Source of the DNA: Streptomyces sp. NBC_00433
Lineage (GTDB): Bacteria; Actinomycetota; Actinomycetes; Streptomycetales; Streptomycetaceae
Direction: 5' to 3'
Length of the DNA: 64,000 nt
Assembly: GCA_036015235.1 (NCBI GenBank)
Contig: CP107926.1
Coordinates: 4,917,501-4,981,500 of the forward strand
The position numbers and the translations under genes are program-made. The notes under the pieces are model-generated. The model had not been told where the DNA came from. It ran no database searches and was given only the letters and a program-made list of their open reading frames with translations. Below, piece by piece: positions 12,834 to 36,502 of this stretch; the first letter of the stretch is position 1; each line of letters begins with the position of its first letter.

Positions 12834-12874
12834 GGAATTGCACTCTACGCCCGGTCACCGCCGCTTCTAGGCTG

Positions 12875-13378: not shown

Positions 13379-13419
13379 GCCGCGCAACCGCTCGCGTCAG
13401 CGTGGCCGCTGTCGGCGGC

Positions 13420-18350: not shown

Positions 18351-18426
18351 GCACTCGTAGCTCAACGGATAGAGCATCTGACTACGGATCAGAAGGTTGC
18401 AGGTTCGAATCCTGCCGAGTGCACCA
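18351..18426 (+). tRNA. tRNA-Arg(ACG), integration target
   Basis: 76 bases including CCA. Acceptor GCACTCG pairs with CGAGTGC (18416-18422), discriminator A. The anticodon stem CTGA/TCAG encloses CTACGGA, giving anticodon ACG (A34 is the TadA substrate; tadA is in this window). The 3' 43 bases (18382-18424) recur at 30799, and 41 of them recur at 34386, marking this gene as the attachment site of two elements. The tRNA stays intact because the incoming element supplies the 3' half. Confidence 0.96.
18382..18424 (+). repeat. att core, proximal copy (inside tRNA-Arg)
   Basis: 43 bases from the anticodon loop to the CCA, identical to 30799-30841. This is the left junction of the tandem array. 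Confidence 0.93.
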
Positions 18427-18519: not shown

Positions 18520-19746
18520 TCACCCGGCACTGCCCATCGCTTCGGAGAGCTGCCGCAGCGCGGCGCGCACCTCTTCCTCGCTCGCCTCGGCGTAGACCTC
18601 CATCGTCATGGCGATCTGCGAGTGACGAAGGATGCGCTGGGCCACTTTCGGGTGGACCTTGAGCGCCACCAGGAGCGAACTGCACGTGTGCCGGGTGTTC
18701 CGCAGCGGGATCACGCGCAGGGCCGCGCGCCGGGCGCGGAGGGCGAACATCCGGGTGAGATTGCCCGGCTCGATCGGGGTGCCGTACTTGGTGGTGAACA
18801 CCAAGCCGTGGGCGTCCTGCCAGAGTTCCCCGGCCGCCTTCCGGTCGCCGTCCTGCTGGACCCTGCGCATGCGGAGTGCCCTCAGGCACAGTTCGGGCAG
18901 CGGCAGGAAGTCGTCCGACTCCTCCGTCTTGGTCTCGCGGTGCAGGATCTGCTTCCCCGCCCGCTGGATCTGGTGGTCCACGTACAACTCGCCGGAGTCG
19001 AAGTCGACGGACTTCCAGGTCAGGCCCAGTACTTCTCCGCGCCGCAGGCCGAGGCAGAGCACCAGCACCCAGGCGGCGAAGAGCGGATCTTCCCGGGTGA
19101 GCCCATCGGCGAGGAACCGGCCGGCCTCGGCGACGGACCACGGCTTGATCCGGCGGCGGCGCGGCTTGGGGACCTTCACGAGCGAGGCGACGTTCTTGCC
19201 GATCTCCTCCTCGGTGACCGCGTGCGTGAGCGCCGCACGAAGGGCATCCCGAGCCGCCTGGATCACCCGGCGCGACGGATACGACTCGCAGCACTCCCCC
19301 GCCGCGCAGCACCGCCTACGGGCGTTGAGGCGTTTGGCGTCCTTGCCCTGAGCGCAGCACTGGCAGATGGTCGCCAGCTTGGTCAGCCACTCGCGGACGT
19401 CCCGCACGGTGAGCTTGTCGAGTCGCTTGGTGCCGAGGTGCGGTGCGATGTAGAGCCGCACCGATCCCTCGTAGGACACGTACGTCAGCGGCGCCAGGTT
19501 GGGTCTGACGATCGACTCCAACCAGTAGGACAGGAAGGCGTCGAGAGTGCGGTGCCGGGTGGCTACGGGACCTTTGCGTGCCTCCGTGTGAAGCTTGATC
19601 CACTTCTCGTGGACCTCCTCCCGGGTCTTGCCGTACACGTACTTCCGCATGCGCCTGCCATCCGGGGTGTCCACCCAGGCGTACGCCGCATAGCCGTTCT
19701 TGTACGGGTAGATGGACCCTTCGCCGTTGCCCCGCTTGCCGCTCAC
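18520..19746 (-). CDS. int: Tyrosine site-specific integrase
   Basis: 408 residues. It has an N-terminal AP2-like arm-binding domain (GNGEGSIYPYKNGYAAY), a core-binding SAM-like domain (about 65-150) and a catalytic domain. Catalytic residues seen: Arg in CLGLRRGEVLGL, Arg and His in RNTRHTCSSLL, His in RILRHSQIAMT and the Tyr in MEVYAEAS. The His of the usual HxxR box is Arg here. A cysteine-rich insert (ICQCCAQGKD ... RRCCAAGECCES) lies between the two domains and may bind zinc. The GTG at 19746 overlaps the xis stop by 4 bases. It integrates into tRNA-Arg(ACG). Confidence 0.95.
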   Translation of the reverse strand: MSGKRGNGEGSIYPYKNGYAAYAWVDTPDGRRMRKYVYGKTREEVHEKWIKLHTEARKGPVATRHRTLDAFLSYWLESIVRPNLAPLTYVSYEGSVRLYIAPHLGTKRLDKLTVRDVREWLTKLATICQCCAQGKDAKRLNARRRCCAAGECCESYPSRRVIQAARDALRAALTHAVTEEEIGKNVASLVKVPKPRRRRIKPWSVAEAGRFLADGLTREDPLFAAWVLVLCLGLRRGEVLGLTWKSVDFDSGELYVDHQIQRAGKQILHRETKTEESDDFLPLPELCLRALRMRRVQQDGDRKAAGELWQDAHGLVFTTKYGTPIEPGNLTRMFALRARRAALRVIPLRNTRHTCSSLLVALKVHPKVAQRILRHSQIAMTMEVYAEASEEEVRAALRQLSEAMGSAG

Positions 19747-19958
19747 GCCGACCGCCTCTCGGGACCGACGGCGGTGACCGCCTGGACGTACTCGTCCACC
19801 CAGGCCGGGAGGATGCGCCGGTTGCGGCCGACCTTCACCGACCGGATCTCTCCGGTCAGGACCAGCATCTTGGTCTTGGACAGCCCGAAGCCCAGCATTA
19901 CAGCGACTTCGGCGACGGTGTGCCACTTGCGTTCGATGACGGTGGTCGTGGCTTTCAT
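19743..19958 (-). CDS. xis: Excisionase, MerR-type HTH
   Basis: 71 residues, a single winged-helix domain: WHTVAEVAVMLGFGLSKTKML followed by GEIRSVKVGRNRRILPAWVDEYV, the standard AICE Xis pattern (HTH_17). It directs the integrase towards excision. Start and stop overlap both neighbours by 4 bases (ATGA with repSA, GTGA with int), so rep, xis and int form one coupled unit. Confidence 0.93.
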   Translation of the reverse strand: MKATTTVIERKWHTVAEVAVMLGFGLSKTKMLVLTGEIRSVKVGRNRRILPAWVDEYVQAVTAVGPERRSA

Positions 19959-21280
19959 CGGGTGGGTTCTCCTTTCGTTCCGGGGGCGGGTTCGAGTGAT
20001 GCGGTGAGCCAGGCTTCGGCGGGCGTGAGTCCGGTGCCGGCGAAGACCCAGTGGGAGAGGACGTACGTCGTCTCTTCCGGGGTCTGTGGGGCCTGAGCGC
20101 GGCGGTACTCGGCGCGGGCGTCGCGGAGGGCGCCGAGGGTGGTGGAGTAGCGGCGGGTCTTGGTCGAGAAGTGGCCGCGGAAGCCGAGCATGTGCGCCCA
20201 GGCGCGCAGGCGGAGGTGTTCGAGGTCCTTGCGGGAGCCGAGGGTCCATGCGGTGCGGATCATGCGGTCGGCGTGGCCGGAGAGTTGGACGTGGGCGAGT
20301 TCGGCCAGGAAGCGGAGGGGGCGGTCGAGGGTGCCGGTGGCCGTCTCGGCGCCCTTGGTCGCGTATTTGGCGATGTACGCGGCCACCGCGCGGTCGGTGA
20401 GGTCCGGGCCGTGGAAGTCGTCGCTGCGGATTGTGCGGACGTCGAGTTGGCGGCCGAACACGAAGGTGTGAGCGCGACCGTCGACCACGGGTCCGGTGAC
20501 GCGTGCAGTGGAGGCGGCGGCGCGGATGGCGTCGGTGAGCAGGTCGGCTGTGGCCCAGGCGGGCGGCGGGGTGCTGCCGCCTTCGGGGCCGTCGAGGCGG
20601 ATGACGGCGTGGAAGTGGACGGCCCCGCGTCGCTGGTACTCGGCGACCTTGGCGAAGGAGACGCGGGCGTACTGGCGGAAGGCCCGTTGGCTGAGTCCGG
20701 CCCGCTTGGCGATCTCGCGGCGCAGGTAGATGGTGAACCGCCGCCACAGGGAACCGGCGTGGGCGTTCCAGAGCACGGCGGCTTCGTAGTCGTACGTGTC
20801 CGGGTTGAGCGGGGTGCCGAGTTCGGGGGAGTCGGCCGGGTGGGCGGTGCCGCAGCGGCAGTGGCCGGAGTCGGGGCGGTTGTGGACGGGGCCGAAGCCG
20901 GGTGCGGTGAAGGTGGCGAAGACGCGCGGGTGGTGGGCGACGTCCTCCGGGGTGCCCTTGCCGCCGCGCAGTCCGGCGGTGATGAGGTGGAAGGTGTCGC
21001 GGCGGTAGGTCTCGGCGCAGGCCGGGCAGCGGGTCGTACGGCGGTTGTTGCACCGTACGAGCAGGTGGCCGGCGGGCAGGGCCTCAGAGGTGAGGCGGTG
21101 GATGGCCGGGCCGATCTCGCCCGTTGTGGTGTCGAGGGTGTGTTCGGTGCGGTGGCCGTCGAGGCGGATCGGGTGGGTGCAGCCGCCGAGGCCGGAGAGC
21201 TGGCGGAAGAGCGCGGGCGTCGTGCCCAGAGCGGCCAGGGTGGCGAGTTCGGGCAGTGGAGGCGGGGTGGCGCGGGTAAT
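19955..21280 (-). CDS. repSA: RepSA-type replication initiator, apparently with an ATT start
   Basis: About 441 residues. A Cys-rich N-terminal segment (VRCNNRRTTRCPACAETYRR) leads to the HTAGLRGGKG-like region. A HUH-like motif is visible as GAVHFHAVIRLDG, and AVAAYIAKYATKGAE is typical of RepSA rolling-circle initiators. The frame is open from a TGA at 21293-21295, yet has no ATG, GTG or TTG before the GTG at 20776, which would delete the conserved first 168 residues. AAGGAG lies 7 bases before ATT at 21280 (ATC at 21283 is an alternative). It overlaps xis by ATGA. Confidence 0.85.
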   Translation of the reverse strand: MTRATPPPLPELATLAALGTTPALFRQLSGLGGCTHPIRLDGHRTEHTLDTTTGEIGPAIHRLTSEALPAGHLLVRCNNRRTTRCPACAETYRRDTFHLITAGLRGGKGTPEDVAHHPRVFATFTAPGFGPVHNRPDSGHCRCGTAHPADSPELGTPLNPDTYDYEAAVLWNAHAGSLWRRFTIYLRREIAKRAGLSQRAFRQYARVSFAKVAEYQRRGAVHFHAVIRLDGPEGGSTPPPAWATADLLTDAIRAAASTARVTGPVVDGRAHTFVFGRQLDVRTIRSDDFHGPDLTDRAVAAYIAKYATKGAETATGTLDRPLRFLAELAHVQLSGHADRMIRTAWTLGSRKDLEHLRLRAWAHMLGFRGHFSTKTRRYSTTLGALRDARAEYRRAQAPQTPEETTYVLSHWVFAGTGLTPAEAWLTASLEPAPGTKGEPTR

Positions 21281-23304: not shown

Positions 23305-24681
23305 TCAGCCGCTGACGGGCCGCGGCTTGGTCAGAGGAACGGGCGTACCGGCAGGAAGCGCCGGGACGGCGGGCCGGAAAGGTGCGAGGGCCGGCAGGTC
23401 GGGTACGCAATCGGCGTTCGCGTCGCAGGTGGCTGCAGCGTCGGCGAGGGACAGATACGGCGTGCGGATGCGGGACCAGCCACCTGAGGTGTCCCCCGCG
23501 ACGGCGAGGCCCGGTCGTTCGGGTGCGATGGCGCAGGCGGCGCCCACGGCTTCCGGGGCGATGTCGCCGAGCGCCATCTTGGCGGAGGCTTCGTCGTTGA
23601 CCCGATGGCATACGCGCCCGGTGAGTTGAGCCCGGAGCATGGTCGCGCCCTTGCCGAGTTCGGCGCCGAAGCGCTGGCCGCAGACTTCCAGGTAGATGCC
23701 GGCGGCGCGTCCGAGCTGGGCGAGCCGGATGAGGTGGGTGACCATCTCGTCGCGCCTCTCCTCGTCCTTCTTGGACGCGACAAGGAAGAGTTCGGCCACC
23801 TCATCCACGAACAGGACGACAGGCACGGGTCTTTCGGCGTCGGGCAGGCCCCAGATGTCGGAGGTGATCTCCTCATCGGGGGTCGAGCGGGCGATGCCCT
23901 GCCGGGCCTTGATCAGGTCGTAGCGCTCCTCCATCAGCCCGACCAGGACGGGCAGCAGTGACGCCGCCTGCTCGGGGTTGGTGGCCAGGGCGGAGAGCCG
24001 GGCCGCGAACGGCGCCAGTTCCACGCCCCGCTTGCAGTCGATCCCGACCAGCGCGACAGGTTGAGGGGCGAGTCCCGCGATCAGGTGCCGCAGGTACATG
24101 GACTTGCCCGACAGGGTGGCGCCCAGGGTGAGTTGGTGGGGTATCGCGCGGTAGTCCCGTACGAACGCGGTCGCGTCCTCCCTCATCGCCACCGGGACCT
24201 TGAGGAAGCCGCCGGACGTCTTGCGGGGCATGCGGACCTTGCGCAGTACGTCGAAGCCGACGAGCCGCAGTTCGACCACGCCCGGCTTGACCACGGAGAC
24301 GTACACGGCGTGAACGTCCCACGCGTGCCGGAGCCGTTCGGCCGAGGCGGCAATGTCGGCCGGCTCCTGGCCCGGGGCGAGCCGCAGCCGTATCCGCATG
24401 CCCGTCGAGGTCGGGCGGATGATCCCCCGCCGTGGAGGAACTGGCCGCACCTCCCGCCGAGTCGTCGCCCGCACCGCCAACGCCCGGAAGCGCGACGGAG
24501 CCACGGTCAACCCGCAGGCGCCCATGACCGACCCGTAAGAACCGAGCAGGCGGGCGGTCGAGAGGGGCAGGCCGACCATGGACCAGTACGCGGCCGGTTG
24601 CTCGGCCCGGAGGTAGGCAGCTCCACCGCCAACCGCAGCGACGGGGCCACCCACCTCCATCAACGTCGTCAGGTCCGGCAT
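23305..24681 (-). CDS. tra: TraB/TraSA-type FtsK-like DNA transfer ATPase
   Basis: 458 residues. After a short hydrophobic N-terminus comes an FtsK/SpoIIIE motor with Walker A GATLSGKSMYLRHL and Walker B VPVVLFVDEVAELF. LGRAAGIYLEVCGQRFGAEL is the usual motif between Walker B and the C-terminus. A single protein of this type moves double-stranded DNA between Streptomyces hyphae. The ATG at 24681 is 5 bases after the previous stop. Expression should be repressed by the GntR protein. Confidence 0.92.
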   Translation of the reverse strand: MPDLTTLMEVGGPVAAVGGGAAYLRAEQPAAYWSMVGLPLSTARLLGSYGSVMGACGLTVAPSRFRALAVRATTRREVRPVPPRRGIIRPTSTGMRIRLRLAPGQEPADIAASAERLRHAWDVHAVYVSVVKPGVVELRLVGFDVLRKVRMPRKTSGGFLKVPVAMREDATAFVRDYRAIPHQLTLGATLSGKSMYLRHLIAGLAPQPVALVGIDCKRGVELAPFAARLSALATNPEQAASLLPVLVGLMEERYDLIKARQGIARSTPDEEITSDIWGLPDAERPVPVVLFVDEVAELFLVASKKDEERRDEMVTHLIRLAQLGRAAGIYLEVCGQRFGAELGKGATMLRAQLTGRVCHRVNDEASAKMALGDIAPEAVGAACAIAPERPGLAVAGDTSGGWSRIRTPYLSLADAAATCDANADCVPDLPALAPFRPAVPALPAGTPVPLTKPRPVSG

Positions 24682-24686
24682 CGGGG

Positions 24687-25037
24687 TCAGGCCCCCGCCT
24701 GGACCGGGAAGGCGGCCGGGGTGACGGCGGCGGCGCGGAAGGCGATCCCGTGCCGCTGCTGCCCGTTGAAGGTGCTCTCCCACGGGCGGGCCACCAGCCC
24801 CGGCAGGGCGACCGGGCCGCCGAGGGTCAGACCTTCGCTGACTCCGCTCTGCGGCACGGTGACCTTGAGGAGCGAGGACTCTCCGTCCTCGATGTGGACC
24901 ACGCCGAGGGTCATCAGCGGTTCGCCGCTGACGGTGTCGGTGGCGATCTCGCCGGTCTGCCGGTCCTTGATCTTCGTTTCCGGAGCCTCGGTCAGCAGGA
25001 TCGTCGCCGACGAGGTCTCCACGCGGATGGAACGCAA
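24687..25037 (-). CDS. SCO3933-type AICE regulatory/accessory protein
   Basis: 116 residues from the TTG at 25037, chosen because AAGGAG is 6 bases upstream; a GTG at 25052 would precede that site. It begins RSIRVETSSATILLTEAPE and is beta-rich (LMTLGVVHIEDGESSLLKVTV), with ARPWESTFNGQQRHGIAFRA near the end. I recognise the pattern as the SCO3933 family found just before the transfer ATPase. Its role is not established. It is the first gene after the operator region at 25064-25153. Confidence 0.75.
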   Translation of the reverse strand: MRSIRVETSSATILLTEAPETKIKDRQTGEIATDTVSGEPLMTLGVVHIEDGESSLLKVTVPQSGVSEGLTLGGPVALPGLVARPWESTFNGQQRHGIAFRAAAVTPAAFPVQAGA

Positions 25038-25063
25038 CGCTTTCTCCTTCACACATGACAGCT

Positions 25064-25224: not shown

Positions 25225-26013
25225 TCACGTGGCCGGAAGCTGATACGCGAGGACGTACGCGTCTGCGGCCATCACCGTGTCGCAGACCTCGACGGCACGC
25301 CCCTCGGTGTCGAAGGCGGTGCGGACAAGGTGGATCACGGGCACACCGGACGCCAGTTGGAGCGTCTTGACCTCACTCGGTGCGGGCATGCGGGCGCGGA
25401 TCTCCTCCTCGAAGTGGTCGAGGCGGTGACCCAGTTCCTCCAGCCGGGCGTAGATGCCGCCAGGCCCCGGGTTCGGTTCGGCGATCGGTGTCCCGCGGGC
25501 CAGATCCAGCGGGAGGTAGGAGGTGGCGAACTCGACTGGGCGCCCGTCGAGGAGGTAGCGGCGGTGCCGGGCCAGTACGCGGCGCGGGCCGCCCAGGCGG
25601 GTGGCGATGTCCTGGCTCGGCCGCTCTTCCTTGATCTCCAGGTTGTCGACGGTGGGGTGGCTGCCTGCCGCGTCGGCCTCCACAGTGAACGCGGACTTGC
25701 CCTGCTCGCGGTGCCGGCGGGCGAAGCGATCCGATGCCAGGCGCCGCACGGGCGGCCGGGGCCGTACGAAGACGCCCTTGCCGTGCTCGGAGACGACCAG
25801 GCCCTCGCCCTGGAGGAGGGACAGGGAGTTGCGTACGGTCATCCGCGAGACGCCGTAGTGCTCGACCAGCTCCGTCTCGGAGGGCAGCTTGTCGCCCTCG
25901 GCGAACTTGCCCTTGTCGATCGCTTCGCGCAGCTGGTCGGCGATCTGGCGGAACACCGCTCGGTCGCTCGTCGGGTCCAGCGCCCCCAGGACGCCGGAGG
26001 GAAGAACGGGCAT
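25225..26013 (-). CDS. KorSA-type GntR/UTRA repressor of transfer
   Basis: 262 residues. The winged helix (about 20-85) has LPSETELVEHYGVSRMTVRNSL and GKGVFVRPRP. The UTRA ligand domain (about 100-255) ends in VIHLVRTAFDTEGRAVEVCDTV and YVLAYQL. In pSAM2 the equivalent KorSA represses pra and so replication, excision and transfer. AAGGAG precedes the ATG. A half operator lies 19 bases upstream (26032-26041), consistent with autoregulation. Confidence 0.9.
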   Translation of the reverse strand: MPVLPSGVLGALDPTSDRAVFRQIADQLREAIDKGKFAEGDKLPSETELVEHYGVSRMTVRNSLSLLQGEGLVVSEHGKGVFVRPRPPVRRLASDRFARRHREQGKSAFTVEADAAGSHPTVDNLEIKEERPSQDIATRLGGPRRVLARHRRYLLDGRPVEFATSYLPLDLARGTPIAEPNPGPGGIYARLEELGHRLDHFEEEIRARMPAPSEVKTLQLASGVPVIHLVRTAFDTEGRAVEVCDTVMAADAYVLAYQLPAT

Positions 26014-26095: not shown

Positions 26096-26527
26096 GTGCC
26101 GATCGAGCGCCCGCACTCCGTGAGCGTCGCCGGAGTCATCGTCGATGACGCCGGCCGCGCCCTGCTGATCAGGCGCCGAGACAACGGCCACTGGGAACCG
26201 CCCGGCGGAGTCCTGGAGGCGGGGGAGACCATCCCCGACGCACTCCAGCGCGAAGTCCTGGAGGAGACCGGCGTCAAGATCACTGCCCCTGCCACTCTCA
26301 CGGGTGTCTACAAGAACATGACCGGCCTGATCGTCTCCCTCGTCTTCCGCTGCGACGCGATCGACGGCCAGCCCTCCACCGGCACCGAGACCAGCGCCCT
26401 GCGCTGGGCCACCCGCGATGAAGTCTCCGAACTCGCGGACGAGGCGTACGCGATCCGCGTACTCGACGCCCTTGACGCAATGTCCCCGCCCGCCGTGCGC
26501 GCGCACGACGGCGTCAAACTCGTCTAG
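26096..26527 (+). CDS. Nudix hydrolase
   Basis: 143 residues, a single Nudix fold. The Nudix box GGVLEAGETIPDALQREVLE continues as ETGV and contains all the Gly, Glu and Arg residues needed for Mg-dependent nucleoside diphosphate cleavage. A Nudix gene divergent from the KorSA-type repressor is a conserved AICE feature (as in pSAM2); it may act in regulation or exclusion. GTG start at 26096. Confidence 0.9.
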   Translation: MPIERPHSVSVAGVIVDDAGRALLIRRRDNGHWEPPGGVLEAGETIPDALQREVLEETGVKITAPATLTGVYKNMTGLIVSLVFRCDAIDGQPSTGTETSALRWATRDEVSELADEAYAIRVLDALDAMSPPAVRAHDGVKLV

Positions 26528-26567: not shown

Positions 26568-26602
26568 ACTTGTATGCACGAGTATACGAGTAGTCCACGA
26601 GT
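26568..26602. promoter_or_regulatory. Cluster of KorSA-type half operators over a start codon
   Basis: ACTTGTATGCACGAGT (26568-26583) has the operator arms with a different centre. Two more ACGAGT half sites follow at 26586-26591 and 26597-26602. The cluster overlaps the ATG at 26574 of the next gene, so a bound repressor would block its start. Confidence 0.5.
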
Positions 26603-27002
26603 CTGGGGACTCAGTTGCCCAGGTTCACCCGAAGAAGTTGGCCGCGTACGCCGCTGGACCCGCGATGTCCTGCGCGATTCCCCATGTGCGGACGACGCCG
26701 CCCTGATCGTCACGGAGCTGAGCGCGAACGCCGTGCTGCACACGACAAGCGGCGACGGGTGCGGTGCCGGGGGAGCGTTCCACGTCAGCCTCGCCGTCTC
26801 CGGCGTGGTCGTGTCCATCTCGGTGACCGACTCCGGCGGCACGAAGACCGCACCGACCGTCGAACACCCCGCCGACGAGGCCACCCACGGCCGCGGCCTG
26901 GCCATGGTCACCGCACTGGCCCACCACGTCGAGAGCCACGGCGACCAGCACGGCCACACCGTGACAGCCCACCTCACCCACGGCACCAAGGACCCGTCAT
27001 GA
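26574..27002 (+). CDS. HATPase_c anti-sigma-type ATP-binding protein
   Basis: 142 residues. This is a stand-alone GHKL ATPase domain: N box ELSANAVLHT, G1 box VTDSGG and G2 box HGRGLAMVTAL. Such RsbW-like proteins are abundant in Streptomyces as anti-sigma or signalling kinases. It heads a run of three overlapping genes ending in an XRE regulator. The second element in this window carries the same ATPase and XRE domains fused in one chain, which links the two functionally. Confidence 0.85.
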   Translation: MHEYTSSPRVWGLSCPGSPEEVGRVRRWTRDVLRDSPCADDAALIVTELSANAVLHTTSGDGCGAGGAFHVSLAVSGVVVSISVTDSGGTKTAPTVEHPADEATHGRGLAMVTALAHHVESHGDQHGHTVTAHLTHGTKDPS

Positions 27003-27355
27003 ACCCCCACTCGGCAACCACGCCACCCGTCGGTCAGGCCGTCCCGTGGACGATTGTCCGCATCCAGAACACCCTCACCAACGAGACGCTGATCCGCCGC
27101 TTCCTTTTGGACCTCACCCACGCCCCTGCATCCCGGGTGATGGAGGTCTTCACGGCCTGGCAGAAGGTCGCCGCAACGATCGAGGCCCATGCGGCACAGC
27201 AGGTCCCTGCCGCAATGGCCGGCTTACCCGACAACCCACAGAAAGGCCCCGCACCGAGCATCGGCCAGAGCGATGGGACGCCATCGCAAGGTGCCGACTG
27301 CCTGCAGGTTGGAAACCACGAGACCGCCGGGACAGACGATGACTCCCCCCTCTGA
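26999..27355 (+). CDS. Uncharacterised protein of the ATPase-XRE operon
   Basis: 118 residues. It begins at an ATGA overlap with the ATPase stop and overlaps the XRE gene by 17 bases. Helical N-terminal half (TLTNETLIRRFLLDLTHAPA, EVFTAWQKVAATIEAHAAQQ), then a low-complexity polar tail. No family recognised. The tight coupling implies joint function with its neighbours. Confidence 0.65.
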   Translation: MNPHSATTPPVGQAVPWTIVRIQNTLTNETLIRRFLLDLTHAPASRVMEVFTAWQKVAATIEAHAAQQVPAAMAGLPDNPQKGPAPSIGQSDGTPSQGADCLQVGNHETAGTDDDSPL

Positions 27356-27695
27356 GCGCGGACTACCGGCGGACGGCAGTCGCCGCAGGCGCGTACAGAC
27401 CCTGCACCACGAACCGGAAGCGGTGACCTGGGCACGGACAAAGGCCGGCCTGACGAAGCGTGCCCTGGCCCAGCAGATCGGGATATCCGAAGCACTGATG
27501 GGCGAGATCGAAAGCGGCTGGCGCAACGCCACACCCGCCAACCTGCTCAAGATCGCCGCCGCGCTCAACTGCCCCGTGGTCTTCCTCGAACGCAAACGCT
27601 CCTCAGAACACCGCCGCCATCAGCCCCGGGAGTCTCCACCGGGCAGCACCACCAGGACGGCGACATCACCACGAAGCGACGCCGAGGCTGAGTAA
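27339..27695 (+). CDS. XRE-family transcriptional regulator
   Basis: 118 residues. The helix-turn-helix (about 30-85) has EAVTWARTKAGLTKRALAQQ, ISEALMGEIESGWRNA and LLKIAAALNCPVVFLERKR. The C-terminus is short and basic. The HTH is closely similar to the C-terminal domain of the fusion protein at 31964-32800, including the phrase SGWRxATPANLxKIAxALNCP. The last gene of the + strand operon. Confidence 0.85.
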   Translation: MTPPSERGLPADGSRRRRVQTLHHEPEAVTWARTKAGLTKRALAQQIGISEALMGEIESGWRNATPANLLKIAAALNCPVVFLERKRSSEHRRHQPRESPPGSTTRTATSPRSDAEAE

Positions 27696-28229: not shown

Positions 28230-28850
28230 CTAAATTTTACGTTTGCAGGCATCGGCTAGAACACCCACAAGCGATGAGACTGAACTACTAGGATTAGGCG
28301 GCTTATGCTTCAATCGGATTTCAGTGCACTTCTCAGCGCGGAGCATGGCGCTTGAGTATTTATCGTACGGAAAAGTTAAGGGAAGATTCTTGCCATTGAC
28401 GCCAAACTTCTTCAATTTTACAGCGAGGGCTTCCGTCGATATCCAGGATGCATGATCTTGAAAATGCCAAAGCAGCCAAACCTCGAAACACGGGCTGCTG
28501 ACAGCTACGTCTAGATCGCTGCGCTTAGCGCGGAGACATGCATTCTCCAGTGTTGCGTGCTGATCAACGTCTACAACGCACCACACTGAGTCGTAAGGGT
28601 CGCCGTTTGACTCTTCTGTTTTCCGGCGGCTGAGGGCTTCCTCAACCACCCGAAGTGGATCACGCCCCAGCCCGATAGACCTCAGCGAAAGAACTTGCAC
28701 GGCTTGTGCGTTCAAATGAGCGGCGAGCCCCTCGAAGTACTGGGGCTCGGTTTTTTCACCCTCAGCCACGATCAGAATCTTCGCAGCTTCCCGCCTTACG
28801 CCCTGGGATTTTTTGATCTTCTGCGACCCTCTGATTTGCCGTCGACTCAC
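28230..28850 (-). CDS. rloB: RloB-like (AbiLii-type) TOPRIM-like protein
   Basis: 206 residues. The pattern KILIVAEGEKTEPQYFEGL near the N-terminus, VWCVVDVDQH in the middle and SSPCFEVWLLWHF further on is that of the RloB family. The acidic residues (Glu in AEGEKTE, Asp-x-Asp in VVDVDQH) fit a TOPRIM-like nuclease fold. RloB pairs with the RloA ATPase, as in the AbiL abortive-infection systems. The ATG overlaps the rloA stop (ATGA). Base composition is much less GC-rich than flanking genes, so it was acquired from elsewhere. Confidence 0.82.
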   Translation of the reverse strand: MSRRQIRGSQKIKKSQGVRREAAKILIVAEGEKTEPQYFEGLAAHLNAQAVQVLSLRSIGLGRDPLRVVEEALSRRKTEESNGDPYDSVWCVVDVDQHATLENACLRAKRSDLDVAVSSPCFEVWLLWHFQDHASWISTEALAVKLKKFGVNGKNLPLTFPYDKYSSAMLRAEKCTEIRLKHKPPNPSSSVSSLVGVLADACKRKI

Positions 28851-30181
28851 TCATGAACTCCAGCCACCAAGGATGCCCGTAGATCTTCCCAAGAGACGGC
28901 TGGTACAGCTCCATAGCGGCCACTGAGGTAGCGGCGCTCCAGGTTGTGGTCAGCCTTCACCGGGAAGTCAGTGAGAGGATAGTACTCGGAAGCCCCATCT
29001 GCAGCCTTTTCTGCAAACCACACGTCCTCCTTCTCCAGAGCACCACCGCCGAGGTGCCCCATGAGGGAGGTGTCGTGAGAGGCAAAGATCAGCTGGGCTC
29101 CCAGGAGGTTAATTTCCGGATCCTTGAATAGGGAAATGAACGCACTCGTCAGTCGCGGATGAAGGCTCGCGTCAATCTCGTCTACGACGAATATTGAACC
29201 ATTGTCTATCGCGCGCATCGCAGGGAGGGCCAAAGAAAGCCAGGCGACGGTTCCACTACTCTCATTTTCGATTTCGAGGACGTACTCGTCTTTTGTGCCG
29301 TCCCCGGTGTGCCAGAATTTAATATGTAGCCTCTGGCGCTCTGCGATCTCTTCGGCCAACTCGTCTGCGCTCTTTGTGTTGTTAGCCCCAGGCACGCTGT
29401 CGGCAACAGCCTTCGCGACACTCGCAATGATTCTGAGATTTTCCTCATCCATCGGCACATCCTCGACGGACAGTCGGGAAATGCCAAGGTCCGCGAATTT
29501 GAGAAGGCTCCCAGCTCGCTGCCTTACCTTATCAGTTTCCATCCAGCCCTTAATGGCTTGGATGCGATTTTGCTGCTGCGATTCAGAGTAGGCCGCATAC
29601 TCGATGTGCTTGGTGAGGTAGTGCTGAACCCGACCGAGTTCCCTGTGGCCCGATTTCGCCGCGAGTGAGATATACAGGTTCATCGCCCCCATGCGGCGGG
29701 CAATCCTCATGTTCTCACCCTTTAGGGTGCGGCCAAACGTAATGCCGTCGACAGTCGAATCATTTCTTTCGAAGAGGACGCGCTTACGCCCTTCCGGAAA
29801 TGAATTTAGCCATTCACTTTGAACTCCGGCTGAGTTGCTTTCGAAGCCGTAAATGTATCGTGTGCCTGACGCGATGAAGTCGAACTCATATGCTGAAGTC
29901 TCGGACGCCGAGCGGCCGTCAAGGATGAACGGACGGAAGGGGAAATTTTCTCGATCATCCCAATTCGCCGAGGAGTTAATCGCATTGATTGCAAAACTCA
30001 TAGCATTGAGAAGATTCGTCTTTCCTGAGGCATTTGATCCGAAGATACCGACTACCCGATTCGTCACGGATTTCCAGTTGCCGTCGACAGGCCGGATCCC
30101 CTCGAATGACGACTTGGCCAACACGAGCTCAACCGTGTCTCGGATGGATCGGTGGTTGGTCACGCGGAAGCGTAGCAGCAT
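28847..30181 (-). CDS. rloA: RloA-like (AbiLi-type) AAA/ABC-class ATPase
   Basis: 444 residues. Walker A is GIFGSNASGKTNLLNA at about residue 50. The signature-like AWLSLALPAMRAI is followed by Walker B SIFVVDEIDASLHPRL and the switch His in LIFASHDTSLMG. This is the AAA_21/AAA_15 (OLD-like) ATPase layout without its own nuclease domain; the nuclease is presumably supplied by RloB. Start is ATG at 30181 or GTG at 30187. In the bases 29401-29460 I count 31 G+C of 60, far below the host's roughly 70 percent. Likely a phage-defence cargo of the element. Confidence 0.85.
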   Translation of the reverse strand: MLLRFRVTNHRSIRDTVELVLAKSSFEGIRPVDGNWKSVTNRVVGIFGSNASGKTNLLNAMSFAINAINSSANWDDRENFPFRPFILDGRSASETSAYEFDFIASGTRYIYGFESNSAGVQSEWLNSFPEGRKRVLFERNDSTVDGITFGRTLKGENMRIARRMGAMNLYISLAAKSGHRELGRVQHYLTKHIEYAAYSESQQQNRIQAIKGWMETDKVRQRAGSLLKFADLGISRLSVEDVPMDEENLRIIASVAKAVADSVPGANNTKSADELAEEIAERQRLHIKFWHTGDGTKDEYVLEIENESSGTVAWLSLALPAMRAIDNGSIFVVDEIDASLHPRLTSAFISLFKDPEINLLGAQLIFASHDTSLMGHLGGGALEKEDVWFAEKAADGASEYYPLTDFPVKADHNLERRYLSGRYGAVPAVSWEDLRASLVAGVHE

Positions 30182-30187
30182 GATCAC

Positions 30188-30798: not shown

Positions 30799-30841
30799 CT
30801 ACGGATCAGAAGGTTGCAGGTTCGAATCCTGCCGAGTGCAC
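30799..30841 (+). repeat. att core, middle copy (junction of two elements)
   Basis: 43 bases identical to the 3' part of tRNA-Arg(ACG). It lacks the 5' half and is therefore not a tRNA gene. It is the right end of the first element and the left end of the second. Confidence 0.93.
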
Positions 30842-30851
30842 AGCAGGTCAG

Positions 30852-30885
30852 AGTCCCTGTCGGAGATCACCGACAGGGACTTTTT
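30852..30885 (+). terminator. Hairpin after the middle att core
   Basis: AGTCCCTGTCGG (30852-30863) pairs perfectly with CCGACAGGGACT (30870-30881), loop of 6, followed by T5. It is the terminator that served the tRNA when the second element was the one next to it. Confidence 0.88.
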
Positions 30886-30893
30886 CATGTCGC

Positions 30894-30906: not shown

Positions 30907-31257
30907 CTAGACCGCCGCGAGCACCCCCGCCGTGGTCTCGTCCGCATCCGGCCGGTTGCTGTCATCCGCCGCCAGAGCCTCGCCGACCCGGTCGAAGGCG
31001 GCGCGCTGCGTGTCCAGCCGCACGAAGGTGTAGATGTCCATCGTCACGCGGATCGAGCTGTGCCCCAGCACTTCCATGATCGTCCGGGCATCCGCGCCCT
31101 ACTCGTGGAGCAACGAGGCGCACGTCTGCCCCGGAGGTCATGGAAGCGCACCTTCCTGATGCCCGCCCGGCGGCTCAACGCCTCGAAAGCCCGGTTGAGG
31201 TTCCGGGGTTCGGTCGGAGTGCCATTGCGGGTGGTGAAGACCAGATATGACGCCTTA
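30907..31257 (-). pseudogene. Tyrosine integrase, C-terminal remnant
   Basis: Translating the minus strand gives an integrase C-terminal half: LVFTTRNGTPTEPRNLNRAF, then VRFHDLRG. After a frameshift it continues as TCASLLHE, an in-frame TAG and GADARTIMEVLGHS, then DIYTFVRLDTQRAAFDRV before the stop. The HDLR box, LGH and catalytic Tyr are all present, but the frameshift and stop break the gene and the N-terminal two thirds are missing. It sits beside the second att core, where int is expected. Confidence 0.85.
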
Positions 31258-31271
31258 CAGCGACCGCGCGC

Positions 31272-31410
31272 ATGCCGGTCGGGGACGAAGTCGCCGACTT
31301 GGACGCGCCCACCGGGACCGCCGTTGTCGAGGCCAGGCGGATCATGGTCGACGCTCGCGGCCACGCCCTGGAACTCACCACTGTCACAGCGCCCGCCGAC
31401 CGCTTCGAGG
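31272..31410 (+). pseudogene. Possible UTRA-domain tail of a GntR regulator
   Basis: About 46 residues: VGDEVADLDAPTGTAVVEARRI followed by DARGHALELTTVTAPADRFE. This is how the last strands of UTRA domains read (compare the intact KorSA-type repressor ending in FDTEGRAVEVCDTVMAADAY). No DNA-binding domain precedes it; it abuts the broken integrase, suggesting that an internal deletion fused the two ends. Confidence 0.4.
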
Positions 31411-31963: not shown

Positions 31964-32800
31964 TCAGGGCGAAGGCTGGCTGTGGGCAGCTGTGCCACTT
32001 GGGCGCTTGCGTTCCAGGACCACGATCGGGCAGTTCAACGCTTCGGCGATCTTCGCCAGATTCGCAGGAGTGGCGCTGCGCCAGCCGGACTCGACCTCCC
32101 CCATCAACTGCTCCGAGATGCCCACCAGCTCGGCGAGCCGCCGCTTCGTCAGACCGCTCTTCTCTCGCGCCCAGGTCACGGCTTCCGGCTCCTGGTGCAG
32201 CCTGCTCGGACGCTCCCGCCGACGCCCGCCCCTCACCTCAGCGGCTATCTCCCCGCGGCCGTTGTCTGCCCCGCATTCGGCCCACAAGAGTTTCCCGACC
32301 CCCTCACGGGCGCTCGCCCCCCAGCGGCCACCGGTGAGCGCGTCCACCAAGGCCAAGCCACGTCCCGACTCGGCGTCCGCAGACAGCTGACGAAGCTCCG
32401 GCTTGTTCTCGTTCGCGTCGTGCACTTCGATGCGCAGATCACCACCCGGCAGCCGCTCGAACCGCGTCTCGACAAGGGCATCTTCCGGTCCGTGGGCATG
32501 CTGCACGGCGTTGGTGACCAGCTCCGAGACCACCAGTTCGGCCACGCCGGCCAGCCCCTTCATGTCCCACGCGTCGAGGTGCCACACCAACAGCCGCCGC
32601 GCCCTGACCACGATGCTCGGGTCACGGCGCCACCGATACACCAGGGTCGACGGCAAGCCGCTCCCAGCCGCCTCAAGGCAGTCGGGCTCAAGGTCGTCGG
32701 CCAGGCCCGACAGAAATGAGTCTCCGCCATCGGTGCTCAAGTAGCAGGGCCTACCGCCCTCGCCTGTCCATGGAAGCAACCGCATCAGCCCACCACCCAC
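31964..32800 (-). CDS. Fusion of HATPase_c (anti-sigma type) and XRE HTH
   Basis: 278 residues. Residues about 60-180 are a GHKL ATPase domain: N box VSELVTNAVQHAHG, a G1-like VHDANEN and G2 SGRGLALVDAL. Residues about 200-265 are an XRE helix-turn-helix: EAVTWAREKSGLTKRRLAEL, ISEQLMGEVESGWRSA and NLAKIAEALNCPIVVLERKR. In the first element the same two domains are separate genes with one gene between them. GTG at 32800 or ATG at 32785 as start. It is divergent from the XRE-TPR gene. The G1 box lacks the normal DxGxG, so ATP binding is uncertain. Confidence 0.82.
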   Translation of the reverse strand: MGGGLMRLLPWTGEGGRPCYLSTDGGDSFLSGLADDLEPDCLEAAGSGLPSTLVYRWRRDPSIVVRARRLLVWHLDAWDMKGLAGVAELVVSELVTNAVQHAHGPEDALVETRFERLPGGDLRIEVHDANENKPELRQLSADAESGRGLALVDALTGGRWGASAREGVGKLLWAECGADNGRGEIAAEVRGGRRRERPSRLHQEPEAVTWAREKSGLTKRRLAELVGISEQLMGEVESGWRSATPANLAKIAEALNCPIVVLERKRPSGTAAHSQPSP

Positions 32801-32968: not shown

Positions 32969-34222
32969 ATGGGGGAAACTCCCGAGATCCTTTGGACCCA
33001 CCCGCAGTTGGCCGCAGCAGTCGCCCGTCGTGACTGGGCCACCGTCTTCCGTACGTACCGCAAGCTCGCCGGGCTGAGTCAAACCAAGCTGGGCGAACAA
33101 ATCGGTCTTGTGCAGCCCGACGTTTCCGACATCGAGCGGGGCCGTCGTCGCGTCACCTCCGTCGAGGTACAGCAACGCATCATCGCGGGACTCGGCGTCC
33201 CTCGCGCGCTCCAGGAAGCCGGAGCCGTCACCGCGGCGGGCCAAGCTCCGGTCTCGGGCCTTGCTCTGCCCGGTGCTATGCCGGACGGCGACTTGATGCT
33301 GCGTGTGGCGGGCGCGGTGGACAGCTCGCGCCGCGTGGATACCGCCACCCTCGATTGGCTCGACCGCTTACTCGCCGAACACCGCCGAGCCGAAGACCAG
33401 ATCGGCTCGCGCCCGCTGGTCAGCGTGATGCGCCAGCAGCTTGACACGGTCGTGGACCTGTACGCCGGAGCGCGCGGACCACTTGCCGACCGGGTCGTAC
33501 GGCTGGCCGCAGAGCACGCACAGTTCCTCGCGTGGATGGCGCAGGACCAGGACGACACGGCCTCAGCCCTGGCCTGGTACGACCGCTCCCACGAATGGGC
33601 GCTGGAGGCCGGAGATGCCAACATGGCCGCCACCACGCTCAACATGAAGGCCCACATGGCGTGGTCCAAAGGCCGCGCCGACCGGTGCGTACGGCTCGCC
33701 GAAGCGGCGCGCTGGTCAGCCCCAGGCGCATCACTCGGCGTCCAAGGTCATGCCGTGCAGATGGCAGCCCGCGGCCACGCGTTGGGCCGAGAGGGCGACG
33801 ACGCCCGCCGCCTGCTCGATGAAGCGCAGGACATCATCAGCCGCGCCGCCGAGCACCCCGAGGACGAACCCGTCTGGATGTACTTCTACGACGAGACGTG
33901 GTTCACCCTGCAACGCGGCATGGCCGCGATGCACCTCCGCGACTGGCAGACAGCCGTCGACCACCTCACGGTCGGACTCGACGCACTGCCGGACGACTAC
34001 CGCCGCGACAAGACCTGGTACCGCACCTGCCTCGCCCACGCCCTCGCCGCGTCCGGTGAGTCGGCACGCGCCGCAGCGGTGGCCGTGGCAAGCGTCCCCG
34101 ACGCAGCAGACATCGGACGCCCGCACTCCTGGAACGAACTCCACACCGCCGCCGCCGTGCTCATGCGCCAAGGAGCCAAGGAAGGCCGACTGCTGGTCGC
34201 CCTTCTCAAGGACCACGACTGA
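32969..34222 (+). CDS. XRE regulator with C-terminal TPR-like helices
   Basis: 417 residues. The N-terminal HTH (about 25-80) has YRKLAGLSQTKLGEQIGLVQPDVSDIERG. From about 130 on the protein is a row of helical repeats (LAWYDRSHEWALEAGDANMA, AKGRADRCVRLAEAAR-like stretches, WQTAVDHLTVGLDALP), as in the Streptomyces family of XRE-TPR regulators that bind a signal peptide or partner protein. Such genes are common on plasmids and element ends. It is the rightmost gene of the second element. Confidence 0.88.
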   Translation: MGETPEILWTHPQLAAAVARRDWATVFRTYRKLAGLSQTKLGEQIGLVQPDVSDIERGRRRVTSVEVQQRIIAGLGVPRALQEAGAVTAAGQAPVSGLALPGAMPDGDLMLRVAGAVDSSRRVDTATLDWLDRLLAEHRRAEDQIGSRPLVSVMRQQLDTVVDLYAGARGPLADRVVRLAAEHAQFLAWMAQDQDDTASALAWYDRSHEWALEAGDANMAATTLNMKAHMAWSKGRADRCVRLAEAARWSAPGASLGVQGHAVQMAARGHALGREGDDARRLLDEAQDIISRAAEHPEDEPVWMYFYDETWFTLQRGMAAMHLRDWQTAVDHLTVGLDALPDDYRRDKTWYRTCLAHALAASGESARAAAVAVASVPDAADIGRPHSWNELHTAAAVLMRQGAKEGRLLVALLKDHD

Positions 34223-34302: not shown

Positions 34303-34385
34303 CCCCGCACAACCGCCACCGCCAGCGCGCCCCAGCGCACGCGCCAGCAGGCCAGGAAGGCCCCCAGCAGGGGTCTGCCCGAACT

Positions 34386-34426
34386 TACGGATCAGAAGGT
34401 TGCAGGTTCGAATCCTGCCGAGTGCA
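34386..34426 (+). repeat. att core, distal copy (original chromosomal 3' end)
   Basis: 41 bases identical to the other two copies. With the 7 bases that follow it matches the middle copy for 48 bases (30800-30847). This should be the original tRNA-Arg 3' end displaced by both insertions. Confidence 0.92.
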
Positions 34427-34433
34427 CAGCAGG

Positions 34434-34470
34434 CCAGAGGCCCCTCGGGATCATCCCGAGGGGCCTCTGG
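34434..34470 (+). terminator. Original tRNA-Arg terminator
   Basis: A perfect 17-base stem: 34434-34450 (CCAGAGGCCCCTCGGGA) pairs with 34454-34470 around a TCA loop, followed by CTTT. It lies right behind the distal att core. Confidence 0.88.
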
Positions 34471-34845
34471 CTTTGGCCTTGCCGCAGCGTCCGACGGCAA
34501 CGTCCCCCCCCGCAACTTCCGGCGCCGCAGGGGCGATCAGGTTGTCGTCAACGTCCGCGTCCCCGGTGTGAAAGCTCGCGGCGCCCCTCCTGGAACCGTC
34601 GTCGCAGGGGCAACGGCAGCCTGGCCGCGACCCGTTCGCCGTGTGTGTCGGAAGGCCCGACGCGGCAGGTCAGGAGGCGTTGCGCCGCAGCCACTTCAGC
34701 CGTGAACCGCGGATCGGAGCCCCCGGGTGGGCCGGACCATACGGGGAGCAAAGGCACGGAATCCGGAAGTGGGGCTACTGTTAGCATTCAGCCACTCACG
34801 GTAGGTAACAGACCTCCGTTCGTAGACTGAAGGATCGAAGTCAAC
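34471..34845. other. Chromosomal gap after the elements
   Basis: 375 bases without a convincing gene. The last 60 bases before the ATG at 34846 are AT-richer and probably hold the promoter of the secreted protein. Confidence 0.5.
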
Positions 34846-35211
34846 ATGCGCAAGCTCCAGCAACTGGCAGTTGTGGCCATGGCGGTCGGCGGCCTCTCCG
34901 CCATCAGCGCGGGCGTCAGCTTCGCGGACGCACCGGCTGCCCCCCCGCAGGGCCAGTCGCAGGCTCCGGAGGGGACGGAGATCTCTCCGCAGGTGTCGCC
35001 GTCGGTCACTCTCCCGCAGGCTCCGCCGCTCGGGTCCGTCCTGCAGGCTCCTCAGACGGCGCCGGAGGTGCAGAACAACCTCTTCCGCCCTTACCAGGAG
35101 TGCAGCCCGCAGACGGTGCTCCAGGCCAACCTCCCGATCGCCGTCCTCGGCGGCGAGTCCAAGACCGCGGGTGACACCTGCACCCAGATCAACAACGCCT
35201 TCGAAGACTAG
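34846..35211 (+). CDS. Small secreted protein with two cysteines (1 of 4)
   Basis: 121 residues. Sec signal peptide MRKLQQLAVVAMAVGGLSAI with cleavage near SFA (about 27). A Pro/Gln-rich stretch (about 30-80) precedes a C-terminal part PYQECSPQTVLQANL and GDTCTQINNAF with two cysteines 33 residues apart. Layout resembles the next three genes. Rodlin-like size and cysteine count, but no clear rodlin motif. Function unknown. Confidence 0.75.
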   Translation: MRKLQQLAVVAMAVGGLSAISAGVSFADAPAAPPQGQSQAPEGTEISPQVSPSVTLPQAPPLGSVLQAPQTAPEVQNNLFRPYQECSPQTVLQANLPIAVLGGESKTAGDTCTQINNAFED

Positions 35212-35236
35212 AAAGAGACCGGACGGATGCGCCCGC

Positions 35237-35271
35237 CATGCCCCCGGGGTGTTGTCGCCCCCGGGGGCATG
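35237..35271 (+). terminator. Strong hairpin terminator
   Basis: CATGCCCCCGGGG (35237-35249) and CCCCGGGGGCATG (35259-35271), a perfect 13-base stem 25 bases after the secreted-protein stop. Confidence 0.85.
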
Positions 35272-35506
35272 CTGCTTCCCATTGGTCCGAACGGGTTGCT
35301 TTCCGGAGCGTCTTCGGCGTCGGGCGCACGGACCCGGAACCCCTTGCGGCGTGGGGTTTCAGGGGCCACACCAGCCACATGGCCCCTTTCGCACCGAGTT
35401 GCTAATGTGCGCGGCGTTTCTGGAGACACGCGCTGGCTTGAGTACATTTAGCCATGCCTGGGACTCTCTGTCACAGATGCAACTGATTCACCAACCGGAG
35501 GATGAA

Positions 35507-35782
35507 ATGCGCAAGATGCAGAAGGTGGCCCTCGTGGCGGCCATGCTCGGCAGCATCGGCTTCGCGGGCGCGGGCACTGCCTTCGCCGGGGAGCACGGCG
35601 GCGACTCGTTCCAGGTGTCGCAGAGCACCTCGTGCAAGTCGCACGACCTGAACGTCGACGTTCTGGGCGAGGTCGGCATCCTGAACGGCCTGCTGGGCAA
35701 CGCGCTCAACGGCGAGGGCAACCCCGGTGCCCAGGCCACCAGCCTCGGCTCCACCATGGGCTGCAACAACAGCGCCTTCTGA
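35507..35782 (+). CDS. Small secreted protein with two cysteines (2 of 4)
   Basis: 91 residues. Signal peptide MRKMQKVALVAAMLGSIGFA with cleavage near AFA. The mature part contains STSCKSHDLNVDVLGEVG, a GILNGLLGNALNGEGNPGAQ stretch and ends MGCNNSAF, giving two cysteines about 45 residues apart, likely a disulfide. CCGGAGG lies 5 bases before the ATG. It is a close paralogue of the gene at 36107. Probably a surface or aerial-hypha protein; family function unknown. Confidence 0.82.
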   Translation: MRKMQKVALVAAMLGSIGFAGAGTAFAGEHGGDSFQVSQSTSCKSHDLNVDVLGEVGILNGLLGNALNGEGNPGAQATSLGSTMGCNNSAF

Positions 35783-36106
35783 GCGCTGACGGTCAGTAAC
35801 TGACCTCGGGGACCACCGCGGCGAGCCGCTTCATCGCGGCCTGCGTCTCGATGGTCCCCGTCCGCCCTTCCGGTGCCGCCCGGGTCCCCGGGCGGCACGG
35901 CGGGCGAGCGGAAGCCGATCGGGTGTGGGTGACAGACCGGTCGCCCCGGAGACCACCGATTACGGGTCTCGCGGGAGACCGACACGGACGCCCGCGAGCG
36001 GCCCCCGCCACCACGAGCATCACGCGCACCCAGTCGCGGAACGGCCAGAGATCCATTCGACGGGACTGGTGCGCGCATCGCGTCACACTCAATCAGCGGA
36101 GGAAAA
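35783..36106. other. Intergenic region between the paralogous secreted proteins
   Basis: 324 bases, no gene seen. The end carries GCGGAGGAAAA, the ribosome site of the next gene. Confidence 0.55.
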
Positions 36107-36379
36107 ATGAACAAGTTCTACAAGGCCGCGGCCGTTGCCGCCATGCTCGGCAGCATCGGCTTCATCGGCATGGGCACCGCTTCCGCCAGCGACGGCGGCA
36201 GTGACTTCGCGGTGTCGCAGAGCACCTCGTGCAAGTCGCACGACCTGAACCTCGACGTGCTCGGCGAGGTCGGCGTCCTCAACGGCGTCCTGGGCGGCGC
36301 GCTCAACGGTGAGGGCAACCCGGGTGCCCAGGCCACGCACCTGGGCTCGGACATGGGTTGTAGCAACAGCGCCTTCTGA
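36107..36379 (+). CDS. Small secreted protein with two cysteines (3 of 4)
   Basis: 90 residues. Signal peptide MNKFYKAAAVAAMLGSIGFI, cleavage near ASA. The mature chain is almost the same as at 35507: STSCKSHDLNLDVLGEVG, GVLNGVLGGALNGEGNPGAQ and MGCSNSAF. The upstream regions differ, so this is an older duplication with separate promoters. Function unknown. Confidence 0.82.
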   Translation: MNKFYKAAAVAAMLGSIGFIGMGTASASDGGSDFAVSQSTSCKSHDLNLDVLGEVGVLNGVLGGALNGEGNPGAQATHLGSDMGCSNSAF

Positions 36380-36502
36380 GCTGACTACGGCCGCAGTTAG
36401 TACGGGGACGGGTCCCGGATCCATGCCGCACGCCGGCGCCGGGGCCTGTCTTCAGGGAATCCGTCAGGTCCGAGTCCGGCACCGACCGCGAAAGAACGGC
36501 AC

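Follow-up and report, generated by a model that had tools for sequence, protein, structure and literature searches.

A GHKL ATPase fused to a Cro-type XRE domain in Actinacidiphila and its possible link to a phage-type repressor/Cro switch

Introduction

The nearest described relatives of an ATPase-XRE gene pair are the WhiJ-BldB-AbaA clusters, in which, according to the parts of the two accounts considered here, HATPase_c proteins are encoded beside XRE and DUF397 genes (PMC10294661, PMC4255298). In AICEs, small XRE proteins near pra and NsdA-like XRE proteins have been described (PMC3218068, in the part considered), as have Pif-type Nudix proteins and decayed tandem elements (PMC3218068, PMC9513070, likewise in part). 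A further point of comparison is Streptomyces phage TurkishDelight, in which gp55, annotated as 'Cro', lies divergent from gp54, annotated as 'immunity repressor'. The open-licence literature yielded no description of a Cro link or of an ATPase-XRE fusion, and nothing on DUF6907 or on Actinacidiphila in connection with XRE. The ATPase-XRE neighbourhood as such was known before, from the WhiJ-BldB-AbaA clusters as covered in part of PMC10294661, although the XRE there is of a different type and a DUF397 protein accompanies it; the term 'undescribed', applied to an ATPase-controlled XRE switch in the initial annotation of the DNA analysed here, is to that extent too sweeping.

This DNA, hereafter the window, is a stretch of 64,000 nucleotides from the 8.99-Mb, single-contig genome of Streptomyces sp. 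NBC_00433; coordinates are window positions unless a locus or genome is named. By inference, this genome belongs to Actinacidiphila, referred to below as the genus. The window carries two ATPase-XRE loci, one fused and one split. We tentatively read the XRE as a phage-type Cro and the fusion as an ATP-gated Cro, perhaps acting in trans on a chromosomal repressor/Cro locus, and give this reading a probability of roughly 0.35.

Two elements at a tRNA-Arg gene

The 3' end of a tRNA-Arg(acg) gene is repeated twice and delimits two adjoining elements (Table 1). By its content, i.e., integrase, RepSA, FtsK/Tra, GntR, Nudix, and att repeats at a tRNA, element 1 (18.4-30.8 kb) is an AICE; its RepSA frame is open further upstream, to ~21.3 kb. 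At the same tRNA, A. paucisporea has a related element that carries the same genes (97% identity for the Nudix protein, 96% for the ATPase, 75% for the middle gene, and 92% for the XRE), and the Rep of element 1 has a 94% match over 273 aa in this locus (L116). Past the AICE att repeat of L116, at 12741-17145, lie fragments of the NsdA-like gene; the element-2 block may have decayed at this place in A. paucisporea. Element 1 also contains, in a low-GC stretch (54.5% in 28-30 kb), an RloB-like gene beside an AAA_21 ATPase gene (28230-30187, minus strand), which PADLOC assigns to AbiLii (E 6e-25) and AbiLi (E 7e-84), making them a candidate anti-phage pair.

Element 2 (30.8-34.4 kb) yielded no recognisable genes beyond the fusion, its NsdA-like neighbour, and a remnant of an integrase, and Rep and Tra were not found between the att repeats; element 2 therefore looks like a remnant rather than an AICE. 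The fusion and its divergent NsdA-like neighbour recur as a pair in two other genomes (G004 and G030). At the DNA level, A. bryophytorum (G004) has the block at 90% identity along 2266 nt, next to the same tRNA-Arg repeats, and G030 has it in pieces that are 90-94% identical, with no tRNA-Arg repeat found within the 19 kb examined. Just outside element 2, at 34846-36400 on the plus strand, are genes for small proteins that look secreted and may be rodlin-like; repeats found in this stretch, at 35595 and 36192, are 85% alike.

Table 1. Features of the two elements and domains of the fusion gene (window coordinates)
Feature	Coordinates	Strand	Evidence and remarks
tRNA-Arg(acg), integration site	18351..18426	+	tRNA found; 3' end repeated twice
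Tyrosine integrase, element 1	18520..19926	-	Pfam E 2e-12
RepSA-type replication initiator, element 1 (C-terminal 273 aa)	19955..20776	-	Pfam E 4e-95
FtsK/SpoIIIE-type transfer protein, element 1	23305..25056	-	Pfam E 3e-34
GntR/UTRA regulator, element 1	25225..26013	-	Pfam
Nudix gene upstream of split operon, same strand	26096..26527	+	Pfam E 5e-20
Split ATPase (HATPase_c_2)	26574..27002	+	Pfam E 8e-14
Middle gene	26999..27355	+	No Pfam, no PHROG match; relative (75%) in A. paucisporea
Split Cro-type XRE (HTH_3)	27339..27695	+	Pfam E 2e-9; recognition helix ISEALMGEIESG
att-type repeat of tRNA-Arg 3' end, element 1/element 2 border	30799..30892	+	Repeat search
Integrase remnant, element 2, C-terminal part only	31044..31364	-	Pfam Phage_integrase E 5e-4, below family cut-off
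Fusion gene: N-terminal module + GHKL ATPase + Cro-type XRE	31964..32785	-	ORF, Pfam, alignment of relatives
XRE (Cro-type) domain, residues 196-262	32000..32200	-	Pfam; 53% identity to phage Cro
Linker, residues 175-195	32201..32263	-	Alignment; length constant in five intact copies
HATPase_c_2 (GHKL) domain, residues 46-174	32264..32650	-	Pfam; fold match SpoIIAB 1th8; pN/pS 0.28
N-terminal module, residues 1-33 (LRLLPWTGEGG...)	32687..32785	-	Alignment; elsewhere separate gene or fused
NsdA-family TPR/XRE regulator, divergent from fusion	32969..34222	+	NCBIfam NF053720 E 9e-46
att-type repeat of tRNA-Arg 3' end, distal border of element 2	34385..34478	+	Repeat search

A fused and a split ATPase-XRE pair

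As initially annotated, one chain encoded at 31964-32800 on the minus strand combines a GHKL ATPase with an XRE domain: the reading frame is open throughout, and Pfam places HATPase_c_2 (residues 86-156, E 7e-9) and HTH_3 (residues 211-261, E 3.2e-9) in the same 278-aa frame. The frame is open from a GTG at 32800, and an ATG at 32785 (MRLLPWTGEGG...) is the likelier start because the alignment with relatives begins there. A third conserved stretch, LRLLPWTGEGGKPCYLSTDGG in the alignment of the fused copies, occupies the N-terminus; the stand-alone form of this module has no Pfam match. In element 1, Pfam finds the same two domains in separate genes flanking a middle gene (26574-27695), again as annotated, and these genes overlap, by an ATGA at 26999-27002 and by 17 nt at 27339-27355. 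HATPase_c_2 scores exceed the cut-off of 27.4 bits in both the fused (36.2) and the split (52.2) form, and the two XRE domains, noted earlier for their shared phrases, are 77% identical over 69 columns.

Like the WhiJ-BldB-AbaA clusters of Streptomyces, these loci combine a HATPase_c protein with an adjacent XRE regulator and belong to sets of many paralogues per genome in streptomycetes. Unlike in those clusters, the XRE is Cro-type and devoid of DUF5753, the operon has no DUF397 protein, and fused forms exist; since Pfam detects neither DUF5753 nor DUF397 in the fusion, the split ATPase, the middle gene, or the split XRE, the window loci stand outside these clusters. As to the AICE regulators in the part of PMC3218068 considered here, the NsdA-like gene divergent from the fusion and the RepSA-type element 1, with its Nudix and GntR genes, are familiar constituents; that part names no ATPase partner or fusion, and for most of the loci described below, no relative of the window's AICE core genes was found within about 5 kb.

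The ATPase part of the fusion carries what we take to be an N-box (E88/N92) and a G2 motif (GRG, 141-143). In a model with pLDDT 58, the ATPase part matches SpoIIAB (1th8, E 8e-5), and the XRE part matches HipB (8e-4), C.BclI (3e-3), and, weakly, 434 Cro (1e-2). In keeping with SpoIIAB/RsbW anti-sigma kinases, which provide the best fold match, N-box and G2 are retained: the N-box E and N and the G2 glycines are invariant in five fusions, and among neighbouring ATPases, the N-box E/N is present in 23 of 24 (18 by pattern, five by eye) and G2 in all 24. In contrast to those kinases, the ATPase is joined to a DNA-binding domain, and no sigma or STAS gene was recognised among the scanned window proteins. 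AlphaFold models were too poor (pLDDT 54 and 58, pTM about 0.5) to be informative on contact between the domains.

Five intact fused copies were identified in four Actinacidiphila species (the window, L053, L054, and both L088 and L091 in A. cocklensis), the others being 73-87% identical to the window protein. A scan of a collection of 84,980 species, in which hits had to contain either of two peptide patterns and from which records near the window's genome may be missing, found the fused form at four loci, all in Actinacidiphila; among plasmid and phage records, no single place covered 80% of the fusion. Mean pN/pS, from ten pairs that are not independent, is 0.22 in the N-terminal module, 1.03 in the spacer, 0.28 in the ATPase, 0.55 in the linker, 0.17 in the XRE, and 0.94 in the tail, a pattern that marks the ATPase and XRE domains as evolving under purifying selection. 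Chance read-through in a decaying element, yielding a chain without function, would agree with the lone integrase remnant of element 2, with the broken sixth copy in the window's own genome (L009/L106), and with L047 in G030. The latter is an element-2 block in which the ATPase domain is deleted in frame (414 nt, 138 codons, about residues 18-155, the size being taken from alignment ends) and the XRE is intact; it constitutes a natural test allele. Nevertheless, with five intact copies in four species and pN/pS well below 1 in both domains, read-through is very improbable.

The codon that opens the XRE part bears on a different alternative, namely that the genes form a co-expressed cluster whose products do not touch, with an anti-sigma-like ATPase acting on its own target, the XRE acting as a separate regulator, and the fusion merely fixing co-expression. 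In the window this codon is a GTG, which may formerly have been a start codon. However, although retained in L091 and in the broken copy, it is replaced by GCG, GTA, and GGT in L053, L054, and L088, respectively, with both domains conserved, so that the fusion is probably the sole product, and the XRE present only as part of it, in at least two species. For the fusion group, an internal start codon was accordingly rejected as a demonstration that ATPase and XRE are made separately.

Kinship with a phage repressor/Cro pair

The XRE part of the window's fusion is 53% identical to TurkishDelight gp55 (E 3e-14) and, judged by sequence, is a homologue of Cro, a name taken from the annotation of gp55. 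With a profile built from ten XRE domains of the window's genome, we searched 35 genomes of the genus and obtained 88 copies in 17 of them. One truncated copy (G000 6858390, in the window's genome) was dropped; 15 copies, one per genome, stand beside a divergent repressor homologue and are referred to as core, and the remaining 72 as non-core. The core partner is a small HTH protein, 51% identical to gp54 over 76 aa, and the pair is thus present in 15 of the 35 Actinacidiphila genomes. In the window's genome it lies at about 5180623-5181500 of G000 (L104), the two genes being separated by intergenic DNA at about 5181094-5181257. The repressor has 19 matches in the genus, namely the 15 core partners and four others with no XRE copy anywhere near (G015 and G027 have one each and G024 has two).

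Eleven of the 15 core loci share neighbour gene families on reading of the maps, the exceptions being L033, L036, L042, and L045, and the three core neighbours scanned encode a peroxidase, DoxX, and an amidohydrolase rather than phage proteins; the core pair is possibly a domesticated phage switch. Relatives of the AbiLii and AbiLi genes of element 1 also occur near the core pair in L042. The same repressor/Cro pair is found in four of six IMG/VR contigs (L120-L123) and in all five genome matches outside the genus, every one of which is thus of the repressor-linked form. A widespread Streptomycetaceae distribution of the XRE was considered and rejected: one of 115 non-genus genomes had a match (E 1e-20, 40 candidates scored per genome), as did four non-genus genomes in an order-wide draw of 391 (E 1e-12, 15 candidates per genome). 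Trees of the XRE copies had too few columns to decide whether the non-core copies branch from within the core ones.

Sites of the form ACTACGC/GCGTAGT occur within 300 nt upstream of the XRE in all 15 core loci and in all 10 repressor-linked loci outside the genus, which are not all independent (L123/L124 and L122/L126 are near-identical pairs), vs 1 of 72 non-core copies and 81 of 2319 background windows. Two viral contigs with no repressor partner, L118 and L119, have none. In the repressor-linked loci, the sites fall in the space separating the two genes. By eye, the core sites overlap an apparent -35/-10 pair, and they could be read mainly by the repressor. Core loci thus resemble TurkishDelight gp54/gp55 in both proteins, in the divergent layout, and in the ACTACGC sites, whereas a repressor partner and the sites are both missing from the ATPase-linked copies. 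As the window copies likewise lack a divergent repressor partner and operator-like sites, they are Cro homologues but not members of a Cro switch.

The DNA-reading helix was assigned by analogy with 434 Cro, a correspondence that we assume. It reads ISEQLMGEIESG in all 15 core copies and in 26 of the 65 non-core copies compared (of the full 72, seven that were incomplete or misaligned were omitted). Compared with this core helix, that of the fusion, ISEQLMGEVESG in the alignment, differs by one I to V change and that of the split copy by one Q to A change. Of the 15 genomes that have the core pair, 14 also carry non-core copies, vs 2 of the 20 that lack it (Fisher p 7e-7, genome kinship not being controlled).

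As to the DNA sites themselves, the exact 12-mer CGCTACTACGCG occurs twice in the window's genome, at the core locus and in an apparent coding stretch; with one mismatch it is not enriched there (76 matches vs 206 for the reversed control). The paired site GCGTAGTNNGNGCGTA is found once in that genome, at the core locus. A search of the whole genus gave ten matches, spread over 8 of 35 genomes (reversed control, six), including two genomes without the core pair, G029 and G031; four matches fall at core loci and six elsewhere, for which reason the paired site cannot serve as a clean genus-wide marker.

The core operator was also examined as a possible autoregulatory site of the ATPase-XRE operons and rejected: a weight matrix derived from the 15 core loci gave no convincing site near the 72 non-core copies. 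Three of these, L048, L074, and L075, exceeded the flag with scores of 6.4-6.7, against 6.7 for the highest shuffled score and 28-48 for the core loci. When the regions upstream of 55 non-redundant operons were searched for k-mers, no dominant motif emerged either. These results bear on a proposed local role for the XRE, which would repress its own operon or regulate it in the manner of an antitoxin, with cargo or a toxin encoded upstream. The end of a compact operon is a place typical of autoregulators, and it is there, after other modules, that the XRE usually lies; the similarity to HipB and C-proteins points the same way, as do matches to antitoxin-type models, all of them below cut-off. 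However, with no common motif standing out upstream, the ancestral sites absent, and the upstream partner varying between unrelated modules, we consider such local control unlikely.

Distribution of ATPase-XRE loci

The initial annotation named a lack of co-occurrence of the two domains in other elements as grounds for refuting its proposal. This refutation did not materialise, and the proposal finds support across the genus, where the domains co-occur far beyond chance: an ATPase gene lies upstream within 4 kb on the same strand at 54 of the 72 non-core loci and on the opposite strand at none. At core loci, a same-strand ATPase is absent (0 of 15), and an opposite-strand ATPase is nearby at one. 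No ATPase was detected upstream at 18 of the 72; five loci offered only 2-3 kb of upstream sequence (L010, L013, L014, L017, and L046), and all five have the ATPase. The other same-strand upstream modules are DUF6907 (20 loci), the N-terminal module (12), module P (10), a Zn-like module (6), and Nudix (4), as counted with domain profiles built from few members of the same loci. Modules P, Zn-like, and N-terminal are working labels for stretches in which Pfam had no match in the one or two examples of each that were searched.

The assignment of the pair to AICEs fared less well. Integrase, Rep, or Tra proteins related to those of the window are encoded near only 5 of the 72 loci, both window loci included, a lower bound that covers about 5 kb and relatives of these three proteins only, and a relative of the element-1 Rep accompanies none of 87 loci. 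The ATPase-XRE pair is common in the genus and not an AICE speciality. The NsdA-like gene, whole or in pieces, has matches at 20 of the 72 non-core loci.

In-frame joining of the XRE to another module is likewise not confined to the ATPase. Besides the nine loci where XRE and ATPase share one open frame (six of the fusion group, L086, L102, and L089, the last with a frame-broken ATPase), the XRE is in one frame with DUF6907 at eight loci (first in L077, L079, and L084, last in L060, L066, L072, L082, and L089), with the N-terminal module at six (five fusions and L047), with the Zn-like module in L074, and with Nudix in L065 (Pfam NUDIX E 2e-10). The fusion therefore does not single out the ATPase as a binding partner, which weakens the original prediction that the split proteins bind each other. 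The DUF6907-XRE fusions, occurring in both orders, point to a putative working link between these two as well. In L086 and L102, an internal methionine precedes the XRE part, and a separate XRE product is possible there.

Distances between ATPases are not correlated with those between their XREs (rho 0.07 for 24 pairs and -0.02 for 14 non-redundant ones), a weak test given that the XRE hardly varies. Absence of co-variation is what co-expressed genes with non-contacting products would be expected to display; the many module combinations of the same XRE and the AbaA-WhiJ neighbourhood, as described in the parts of PMC10294661 and PMC4255298 considered, also favour that alternative. Together with the loss of the internal GTG, which speaks for a single functional chain, this leaves mere co-expression a serious contender, although we would not give it an even chance.

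Discussion

The reading of the fusion as an ATP-gated Cro starts from the conservation of the ATPase-Cro chain, the simplest interpretation of which is that the nucleotide state controls Cro. The ATPase would likely serve as a SpoIIAB/RsbW-like nucleotide-dependent switch that alters Cro dimerisation or DNA binding, and this control would likely be intramolecular in the fusion and exerted through contact of co-expressed chains in the split operon. With less assurance, we suggest that the ATPase-linked copies may have a trans-acting role, with the operator array of the chromosomal repressor/Cro locus, or related incoming phages, as the target. Action in trans is suggested by the combination of own promoters without operators, a core locus with operators, and a nearly ancestral recognition helix.

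In favour of a gated Cro, we count the maintenance of the fusion in four species, the frequent same-strand ATPase, the additional in-frame ORFs of L086 and L102, the retained N-box and G2, the fold matches, the identity to a phage Cro, the sites at repressor-linked loci, and the joint occurrence of core pair and non-core copies. Against it, we count the lack of co-variation, the ATPase-less L047, the other fusion partners, the 18 loci without an ATPase, the Q to A change in the split helix, the limited share of non-core copies that keep the exact core helix, the possibility that the sites are read mainly by the repressor, and the six paired-site matches outside core loci.

A broader view, more doubtful than the gated Cro itself, is that Actinacidiphila has domesticated a phage repressor/Cro switch and that mobile elements bearing operator-less Cro copies, wired to ATPase, DUF6907, and Nudix sensors, may feed their own signals through one shared DNA site into this switch or into related incoming phages, the ATP-gated Cro of the fusion being the simplest case. 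The kinship of the XRE with a phage switch was unexpected and makes the DNA target testable. If the broader view is true, a single host switch of phage origin would receive input from different sensors brought in by many mobile elements, a modular, trans-acting form of control that would be easy to test, given that the predicted DNA site is known.
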